A stretch of 39,189 nt of DNA from Clostridiales bacterium. Its GTDB lineage: Bacteria > Bacillota > Clostridia > Peptostreptococcales > Natronincolaceae. This document shows positions 20,332 through 39,189 of this stretch, piece after piece; position 1 is the first letter of the stretch, and each line of letters opens with the position of its first letter. The notes beneath the pieces were generated by a model that did not search any database, was not told the DNA's origin, and saw nothing but the letters and a program-made list of their open reading frames with translations. Position numbers and translations under genes: made by a program. The DNA is taken from the NCBI GenBank assembly GCA_012519835.1, contig JAAYPJ010000009.1:1-39189 (forward strand), written 5' to 3'.

Positions 20332-20469
20332 TTCCATCCCTCCGTTCCAGCTCCCATGGGATGCCGGACAATTTTTTTAAAAATAACTTTTGAAACAGTC
20401 CAGCTCGAAATATGATGCCGGCTATCTCGTTATTAATATTTTAACAGGATATAGCCTATATTACAATAA

Positions 20470-36599: not shown

Positions 36600-36628
36600 T
36601 TGACAAAAAACAAATATTTTTATATTAT
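36600..36628 (+). promoter_or_regulatory. Promoter of the T-box / aspS transcript
   Basis: TTGACA (36600-36605), 17-nt spacer, TATTAT (36623-36628), near consensus. Transcription would start about 36635. Confidence 0.85.
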
Positions 36629-36656
36629 GATAGTCAATAGAATATAGTTCACAAAA

Positions 36657-37010
36657 AAGGCTATGAACGGAAGAGTAGATTAAATAAACTGGTTACAGAG
36701 AGCCGGCGGTGGTGAGAATCCGGTACAAAGAGTTTAATTGAAGAACATCCGGGAGTCGCTAACCGAAAGCATATATAAACGGGCTTAAATGTATTTGCCA
36801 CATTACTATATTATAGATAGATAAATGAGCTGCCCGGAACTGAACTATATGCAAGTAGGCTTAGATGTATCTGCTACATTACAGCAGTAGATATAGATAT
36901 TGGATCTGTATTGAAATCGAGTGGATTATTTTATTATAATCAATTTGGGTGGTACCGCGAAATCAAAACCTTTCGTCCCTGTTATTAAATAATGGATGAA
37001 GGGTTTTTAT
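36657..37010 (+). promoter_or_regulatory. T-box riboswitch controlling aspS
   Basis: A tRNA-sensing leader. Stem I has the AGTA box (GAGTAG near 36675), the AG-bulge CAGAGAG and GGTGGTGAG distal-loop signals, then the specifier region GAAGAAC (36740-36746) followed by ATCCGGGAGTC. The T-box proper is GGGTGGTACCGCG (36947-36959), whose UGGU bulge would pair with an NCCA tRNA end. The terminator is an about 14-bp stem, AAAACCTTTCGTCC (36965-36978) against GGATGAAGGGTTTT (36994-37007) with two wobble pairs, and a U run. The specifier holds overlapping GAA (Glu) and AAC (Asn) triplets and no in-register Asp codon. Between stem I and the antiterminator is a 25-bp imperfect duplication. Confidence 0.95.
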
Positions 37011-37281
37011 TATGACCTAACCCGATCCGACACTCCGCCCTTTTCAAAGTAGTATTTTTGTTTGTTGTTAATATTTCTACTAAATTAAGGGGGCTTTATT
37101 TGTTATCAACTGAGTGTCGGAGAGTGAAGAAATTTGTAATGTTTGTCTGCGGAGAATAGCCTAACCCATATGAGAGGTGAGAGGCGCGAAGTGGGAAGTG
37201 AAACTTCAGGAAATGATTTTTCATCAATTGAGGAGATTAAAATTAAATATAAAAGACAAAGGCAAGTATAGGAGGGAAAAA
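37011..37281 (+). other. Long aspS leader after the T-box, with dyad and heptamer repeat
   Basis: Downstream of the T-box terminator, 271 nt precede aspS. CCGACACTC (about 37027-37035) and GAGTGTCGG (about 37112-37120) form a 9-bp inverted pair about 85 nt apart. A heptamer run GAGAGGT, GAGAGGC, GCGAAGT, GGGAAGT lies at 37172-37199. No gene is seen. Confidence 0.6.
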
Positions 37282-39189
37282 ATGATAGAACAGAAAAGGA
37301 GTCACTATTGTGGGCGAATATATGAAAAAGATAAGGCTACTACGGCCACAGTAACAGGATGGGTTCAGAGAATAAGGGATATGGGCGGAGTATTGTTTGT
37401 GGATTTAAGGGATAAAACAGGAATACTTCAAGTAGTTTTTAACATAGAAAAGACGGGAGAAGAAGTATTCTCCCTGGCGGAAAGCCTGAGAAACGAATAT
37501 GTAATAAAGGTTCAAGGTCAAATAGAACAAAGGGATGAAGAAACATACAATCCGAATATTCCCACAGGAACCATAGAACTGAGAGCAAAGGATCTGGAGA
37601 TATTATCAAAATCAAAACCGTTACCGTTTCCGGTGGAGGACAATATCAATGTAAAGGAAGAAATAAGGTTTACCCACAGATACTTGGATTTGCGCAGACC
37701 AAAATTGTACAAGAACCTTGCATTGAGACATAATACCGTAAAATCCATAAGAAGATATCTGGAGGATAATGATTTTATGGAAGTAGAAACACCAATATTA
37801 ACCAAAAGCACACCGGAAGGTGCAAGGGATTATTTAGTACCCAGTAGAATCCATGAAGGTAAATTTTATGCATTACCTCAATCACCTCAGATCCTCAAAC
37901 AAATATTAATGGCATCAGGTATAGACAGATACTACCAGGTAGCAAAATGCTTCAGGGATGAAGACTTGCGCGCAGACAGGCAACCGGAATTTACCCAGGT
38001 AGATATAGAACTGTCCTTTGTGTCACAGGAAGAGGTATTGGAACATATGGAAGGATTATTTAAACAGGTATTTAAGGAAGTAATGAATATTGAATACAAA
38101 GATGCCTTTCCGAGACTGACCTATCAGGAAGCCATGGATTTATACGGTACCGATAAGCCGGATTTAAGATTTGATATGCAAATAGTAGACCTGAGCCATA
38201 TAGCTAAGGATTGCGGATTTAAAGTCTTCAGAAATATAGTGGACAGCGGGGGTGCCGTAAGGGCTTTAAATATAAAAGGCGGAAACTCCCTTACAAGAAA
38301 TGAAATAGACGATCTTACAAAACTGGCTATAGACTACGGTGCTCAAGGAATGGCCTGGATTGCCATAGAACCGAATGGGAATCTGAGGACATTACTGACA
38401 AAGTTCCTATCGAAAAATGAAGTAAATGAAATAACAAAGGTGATGAAAGCCGAACCCGGAGATATGATAATCTTCTGTGCGGATACACTTGAAGTTATAT
38501 ACAAAACCCTGGGAAACCTGAGGCTACACATCGGGGACAGGATGGGGCTTAGGGATAAAGATGATTATAAATTCCTCATAGTTACGGATTTTCCACTCCT
38601 GGAATGGTCGGAAGAGGACGGAAGATATGTGGCCATGCATCACCCGTTTACCATGCCGGTGGAGGTGGACAAATTCCTGGCGGGTGAAGATTTGGACAAG
38701 ATAAATGCAATGAGCTATGACTTTGTCCTAAACGGTATAGAACTTGGCAGCGGCAGTATCAGAATCCATAGGGATGATGTACAAAGAAAAATGTTTGAGA
38801 TATTAGGTCTGTCTGACGAAGAAATCCTACATAGATTTGGATTTGTGTTAGAGGCATTTTCATACGGTACACCGCCCCACGGCGGGTTCGCCTTCGGGTT
38901 GGACAGACTGGTCATGATCATGTCCCAATCAGATAGTATAAGGGATGTAATAGCGTTTCCAAAGACAAGGGAAGCAAGCTGTCTTTTAAGTGATGCGCCC
39001 AGTACGGTTGATAAGGAACAGCTTGATATTTTAGGTTTATCAATAGGGAAATATACTGAAGAAGACAAAAAAGAATCGGAAATAGAAATAGAAATAAAAT
39101 TGGATATAAATGAACTGGAAGAATTGTCCGAACTACTTTTAGATAAGAAGGAAAAAGAAGAAATAGAAAAGGAAATCAGGGAATTAATA
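37282..39189 (+). CDS. aspS: Aspartyl-tRNA synthetase, probably non-discriminating, with C-terminal GatC-like extension (partial)
   Basis: Charges tRNA-Asp and, as inferred, also tRNA-Asn. 636 codons are visible and the frame is open at the window end. The N-terminal OB domain (TATVTGWVQRIRDMGGVLFV) has Met where many bacterial AspRS have His in RDHGG. The class II core has YQVAKCFRDEDLRADRQPEF, a GAD-type insertion domain, and GGFAFGLDRLVMIM. AspRS proper should end near residue 590 (STVDKEQLDILGLSIGKY). The frame instead continues through a charged linker into INELEELSELLLDKKEKEE, whose hydrophobic spacing matches the GatC N-terminus. AGGAGGG precedes the ATG at 37282. It follows a T-box with a Glu/Asn specifier. 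Confidence 0.95.
   Translation, partial: MIEQKRSHYCGRIYEKDKATTATVTGWVQRIRDMGGVLFVDLRDKTGILQVVFNIEKTGEEVFSLAESLRNEYVIKVQGQIEQRDEETYNPNIPTGTIELRAKDLEILSKSKPLPFPVEDNINVKEEIRFTHRYLDLRRPKLYKNLALRHNTVKSIRRYLEDNDFMEVETPILTKSTPEGARDYLVPSRIHEGKFYALPQSPQILKQILMASGIDRYYQVAKCFRDEDLRADRQPEFTQVDIELSFVSQEEVLEHMEGLFKQVFKEVMNIEYKDAFPRLTYQEAMDLYGTDKPDLRFDMQIVDLSHIAKDCGFKVFRNIVDSGGAVRALNIKGGNSLTRNEIDDLTKLAIDYGAQGMAWIAIEPNGNLRTLLTKFLSKNEVNEITKVMKAEPGDMIIFCADTLEVIYKTLGNLRLHIGDRMGLRDKDDYKFLIVTDFPLLEWSEEDGRYVAMHHPFTMPVEVDKFLAGEDLDKINAMSYDFVLNGIELGSGSIRIHRDDVQRKMFEILGLSDEEILHRFGFVLEAFSYGTPPHGGFAFGLDRLVMIMSQSDSIRDVIAFPKTREASCLLSDAPSTVDKEQLDILGLSIGKYTEEDKKESEIEIEIKLDINELEELSELLLDKKEKEEIEKEIRELI

Follow-up and report, generated by a model that had tools for sequence, protein, structure and literature searches.

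The closest described counterpart of the element studied here is the T-box riboswitch of the transamidation operon of Clostridium acetobutylicum (Saad 2012, JBC; Saad 2013, PNAS; as conveyed in PMC4206432, PMC4052509 and PMC7778990). As far as these accounts present it, this two-tRNA T-box contains an Asn and a Glu triplet that overlap, as the leader described below does. C. acetobutylicum, Deinococcus radiodurans and Thermus thermophilus use the amidotransferase GatCAB to form Asn on tRNA-Asn (PMC4206432). We analyzed a T-box leader in front of aspS2, a second aspartyl-tRNA synthetase (AspRS) gene fused to gatC, in a genome of a Clostridiales bacterium of the Natronincolaceae. The window, that is, the whole stretch of DNA analyzed, is the complete contig JAAYPJ010000009.1 (39,189 nucleotides) and ends inside aspS2. 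A preliminary description, made from the DNA letters, had proposed overlapping Glu and Asn specifier codons in this leader and suggested that it senses both products of transamidation. Our analysis indicates that the leader is very probably an Asn-specific class I T-box that controls an operon for tRNA-dependent Asn synthesis.

Leader architecture and specifier register

The leader matched the Rfam T-box model over its whole length (positions 1-219) with a score above the gathering score of 93, which bears out the T-box proposed upstream of aspS. Its antiterminator, which has a UGGN bulge, competes with a terminator, and we interpret the leader as a class I transcriptional T-box riboswitch, for which tRNA binding and switching are predicted. 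The features of the locus are as follows.

36600-36628, plus strand: promoter-like TTGACA-17-TATTAT (11 of 12 consensus positions; a consensus match only, in an AT-rich region where chance matches are expected)
36654-36983, plus strand: T-box leader, RF00230 (Rfam covariance model, 117.3 bits, E 1.6e-25)
36660-36757, plus strand: Stem I (Rfam alignment and independent minimum free energy (MFE) fold)
36740-36747, plus strand: specifier loop GAAGAACA (sequence, Rfam alignment, MFE fold)
36743-36745, plus strand: overlapping GAA (Glu) in the -1 frame, generic context (comparison with other T-boxes)
36744-36746, plus strand: specifier AAC (Asn) in the +0 frame of the TBDB rule (PMC7778990), tested on ten T-boxes of the genome
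36753-36828, plus strand: Stem II-Stem III block, copy 1 of a tandem duplication, AGTA absent
36829-36905, plus strand: Stem II-Stem III block, copy 2 of the duplication, AGTA retained
36950-36953, plus strand: T-box bulge UGGU, complementary to the tRNA acceptor end (sequence, Rfam alignment)
36961-37011, plus strand: stable intrinsic terminator hairpin and T run, alternative to the antiterminator (fold, z -4.8)
37282-39189, plus strand: aspS2, encoding the second AspRS with a fused GatC, truncated at the contig end (profile matches, contig overlap)

Owing to a tandem duplication of the Stem II-Stem III block, this leader exceeds those of its relatives by about 80 bases. The block comprises about 76 bases, and its copies are 71% alike over 62 bases; Tandem Repeats Finder did not call this duplication.

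Folding with the Rfam model fixed the specifier loop at 36740-36747, and the Rfam alignment and the independent MFE fold of Stem I agreed on its closure by CGGA/UCCG. GAAGAAC lies exactly where the preliminary description had placed it, at 36740-36746, with ATCCGGGAGTC directly after it; the overlapping GAA and AAC triplets are present in this one loop at 36743-36746. The statement that no Asp codon fits was likewise correct, as the candidate frames read GAA, AAC and ACA and the loop holds neither GAC nor GAU. An Asp T-box was thereby ruled out.

According to the TBDB rule, bases 2-4 of the loop, counted from its 3' end, form the specifier, and the -1 and +1 frames are alternatives (PMC7778990). 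In the genome under study, the +0 register agreed with the amino acid of the downstream gene at ten other T-boxes, namely those of ValRS (GUA), AlaRS (GCA), SerRS (UCC), PheRS (UUC), LeuRS (CUC), MetRS (AUG), CysRS (UGC), ThrRS (ACU), GlyRS (GGC) and HisZ (CAC). By this rule and these ten T-boxes the usual register is Asn, and not Glu as had been assumed; a Glu-only register was rejected on the same grounds. The triplet formerly taken as the codon in the usual register, GAA at 36740-36742, is the conserved loop GAA present in T-boxes of every specificity, while the GAA that overlaps AAC is the one at 36743-36745. The specifier AAC fits the downstream operon for tRNA-dependent Asn synthesis.

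Overlapping triplets and bulge in control T-boxes

We compared the loop with those of related operons and of T-boxes that govern other genes; since all of these are related by descent, the counts below do not represent independent events. AspRS-GatC fusions were found 19 times, including the present one, among 394 genomes of the order, and all 19 operons are preceded by a T-box with AAC (those of L054 and L057 were recognized by motif, below the Rfam cut-off). While AAC is invariant in this set, the preceding base varies (17 G, 2 A), and the two T-boxes that read GAAAAAC have lost GAA and kept AAC. Among asnS T-boxes of the same order, the loop GAAGAACA occurs in 17 of 19. A class-wide scan with GAANAACATCTCNGAG, which is unconstrained at the base before the specifier, gave 19 matches that had T-box motifs; each of them lies in front of asnS or asnA, and 17 have G. 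Ten of these genes were confirmed and the remainder recognized by their sequence. Together, the overlap is found in 34/38 asnS and asnA T-boxes, which serve the direct route without transamidation, versus 17/19 AspRS-GatC T-boxes (p = 1.0 in a Fisher test based on 34/37, before the last gene was identified).

Beyond Asn, G precedes the specifier in 50 of 80 eight-base loops from 21 genomes, among them 15/17 for Phe and 10/11 for Val, as assigned by our own scoring script, which misassigned a few loops (e.g., L009 and L011). This G is more frequent in Asn T-boxes than in the other loops pooled (p = 0.0001) and not more frequent than in Phe and Val T-boxes (p = 1.0). Because asnS, asnA and non-Asn T-boxes commonly share the G before the specifier, the GAA overlap is generic and, judged from these comparisons, is by itself no evidence of a two-tRNA sensor. 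It did not discriminate a two-codon T-box from ordinary Asn T-boxes, and the asnS and asnA controls led us to reject it as a mark of transamidation. Sensing of Glu by this leader is possible, with no comparative support. The suggestion that the leader senses both transamidation products was thus not sustained, given the GAAC loop of asnS and asnA T-boxes and the presence of a glutaminyl-tRNA synthetase (GlnRS) in the genome; moreover, charged tRNA-Glu is not a transamidation product.

For the acceptor end, we used the tRNAs of relatives, which carry G73 in tRNA-Asn and A73 in tRNA-Glu. The bulge UGGU can pair with both, with A73 in Watson-Crick and with G73 in wobble geometry. As a mark of dual specificity, however, the bulge U was rejected, as it is also present in 13 of 19 asnS T-boxes. 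Four AspRS-GatC T-boxes retain GAAC with a UGGC bulge, which cannot pair with A73.

The downstream operon and the probable route to asparagine

The product of aspS2 is a bacterial-type AspRS with a GAD domain (767 bits to TIGR00459), and its GatC domain begins before the window ends. A second contig, C39, which overlaps the last 127 bases of the window without mismatch, carries the remaining GatC, followed by a gatA-like gene and gatB. The GatC-like tail noted in the preliminary description was found independently by PF02686 and TIGR00135. NF009460, the model for bifunctional AspRS/GatC, gave 637-641 bits, which is under its curated cut-off of 1379. The other AspRS copy of the genome, on contig C110, is about 51% identical to the aspS2 product. 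Identical gene order was observed in a second genome of the genus (L048) and in G027 (L047), and a rumen Oscillospiraceae genome (L230) contains a matching AspRS-GatC operon with the same specifier loop; of two loci inspected among the matches listed in a scan with a fusion-alignment profile, L230 is such a fusion operon and L274 an ordinary AspRS. At the AspRS discrimination motif (position 31-type) we saw Leu or Met. In work on Pseudomonas, the residue expected there in a non-discriminating AspRS is reportedly His.

The genome is 99.9% complete and encodes both asparaginyl-tRNA synthetase (AsnRS, asnS) and GlnRS (glnS), while neither the AsnB domain PF00733 nor AsnA PF03590 had a match in it. 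As GlnRS is present, GatCAB is not needed for Gln-tRNA. Along with GatCAB genes, of which gatA is divergent, and the extra AspRS, the tRNA-Asn of relatives, one of them from the same family, has the U1-A72 pair in addition to G73, and U1-A72 in tRNA-Asn is required for transamidation (PMC4206432). With AsnRS and GlnRS present and no match for AsnA or AsnB, the likeliest role of the AspRS-GatC/GatAB operon is the formation of Asn on tRNA-Asn, and the operon is probably the asparagine synthesis pathway of the cell. Eight of the fusion-bearing genomes (G099, G157, G112, G190, G120, G139, G124 and G127) had no GlnRS above the cut-off. In another genome of the order, G020, listed as complete, neither GatB nor GlnRS was found over the cut-off.

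Upstream of asnS in this genome (L441, 780-935), we observed a promoter close to consensus and a terminator hairpin in the style of a T-box. An Rfam search of this region returned no T-box match and no Stem I was seen; read by eye, it looks like a T-box remnant.

The gatA-like gene (L310, 1972-3300, contig C39, minus strand; counterpart L048, 553-1911) encodes a protein that scored 282 bits against the GatA cut-off of 481. In an alignment with Staphylococcus aureus GatA, K79 is replaced by Thr and residues 158-187, including S178, are missing. We take K79, S154 and S178 to be the key amidase residues of GatA. In both species of the genus the frame is uninterrupted, with a ratio of nonsynonymous to synonymous substitutions (dN/dS) of 0.18, and the gene has therefore been kept, possibly encoding a glutaminase-dead structural subunit. 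A second gat locus (L311, 2521-5474, contig C156, minus strand) contains an intact GatA and a GatB of 301 residues from which the YqeY domain is absent; its GatC domain and the end of a Lit-type membrane protein are encoded in a single open frame. Based on these findings, we tentatively propose, as a less than even prospect, that in this genus an Asn T-box controls a complex of a GatC-fused AspRS and a glutaminase-dead GatA under purifying selection, in which the amidation of Asp-tRNA-Asn would use free ammonia or else a GatA recruited from the C156 locus, whose GatB is truncated.

Elsewhere in the window, a pan motif (RF01749, 42.9 bits, 20339-20424, minus strand) precedes the gene of a 174-residue protein, for which no NCBIfam match was found. 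Genes for a type III pantothenate kinase and dusB lie downstream, and the 174-residue protein may have a role in the uptake or synthesis of pantothenate.

Alternative readings and known systems

In our working model, the GUU anticodon of uncharged tRNA-Asn would pair with AAC of the specifier loop and its NCCA end with the bulge UGGU, whereupon the antiterminator would form and transcription would enter aspS2-gatC, the gatA-like gene and gatB; with charged tRNA-Asn, the terminator would form instead. The second AspRS would load Asp onto tRNA-Asn, and GatCAB would then amidate Asp-tRNA-Asn. The additional GAA would result from the base before the specifier, which is usually G. The model draws on the leader, its structure and register, the operon content, the pathway genes and the control T-boxes, with tRNA binding, switching and misacylation by AspRS as its predicted steps. 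Several points weigh against it: the bulge U pairs in Watson-Crick fashion with A73 of tRNA-Glu and only by wobble with G73 of tRNA-Asn; the tRNA-Asn and tRNA-Glu genes were not found in the fragmented assembly, in place of which the tRNAs of relatives were used; and the GatA-like subunit seems to be devoid of glutaminase residues, which puts the ammonia source in question.

A true two-codon T-box, which would bind tRNA-Asn through AAC and, shifted by one base, tRNA-Glu through GAA and so integrate two amino acid signals, could account for GAAC in this and other AspRS-GatC operons (17/19) and for a UGGU bulge able to pair with G73 and A73 alike. It has the C. acetobutylicum precedent in its favor (Saad 2013, as reported in PMC4052509), and both GAAAAAC operons lie in genomes with glnS. 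We nevertheless consider it unlikely, as the overlap is equally frequent in asnS and asnA T-boxes (34/38) without transamidation, G is the commonest preceding base elsewhere as well (50/80, with 15/17 for Phe and 10/11 for Val), four AspRS-GatC T-boxes combine GAAC with an A73-incompatible bulge, and this genome possesses GlnRS. The published two-codon reading would hold for this leader no more than for any other Asn T-box in these bacteria. That GAA is the sole specifier is hardly credible: GAA does occupy the -1 frame and UGGU matches A73 of tRNA-Glu, but this frame is wrong for the ten other T-boxes of the genome, and in two related operons AAA replaces GAA, whereas AAC is never lost. Decay into a non-functional leader, which the duplicated Stem II-Stem III block and its AGTA-less first copy might suggest, is improbable in view of the intact Stem I, bulge, antiterminator and terminator and of a second copy with AGTA and Stem III.

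The Asn-specific T-box favored here does resemble the C. acetobutylicum precedent in having overlapping triplets before an AspRS-GatC transamidation operon, as had been pointed out. In contrast to that system, the present genome can dispense with GatCAB for Gln-tRNA, and the leader contains a duplicated Stem II-Stem III block; in our comparison, asnS and asnA T-boxes show the hallmark overlap as well. In Clostridia, the Asn T-boxes upstream of these two genes have the identical loop and a UGGU or UGGC bulge, but govern direct charging or the synthesis of free Asn rather than transamidation. With the NF009460 family, the fusion order is shared and the alignment covers nearly the whole model, with a score below the cut-off. 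As in D. radiodurans and T. thermophilus, AsnRS and GlnRS coexist with an extra AspRS and GatCAB that make Asn (PMC4206432); their extra AspRS is of the archaeal type, whereas the one described here is bacterial, with a GAD domain and fused to GatC. With our data, the T-box-regulated operons for tRNA-dependent Asn synthesis would include those of a lineage in which AspRS is fused to GatC. The data also show that clostridial asnS and asnA T-boxes commonly have the same GAAC overlap that marks the published two-tRNA T-box at the sequence level, so that either all GAAC Asn T-boxes also sense tRNA-Glu or the overlap carries no signal.
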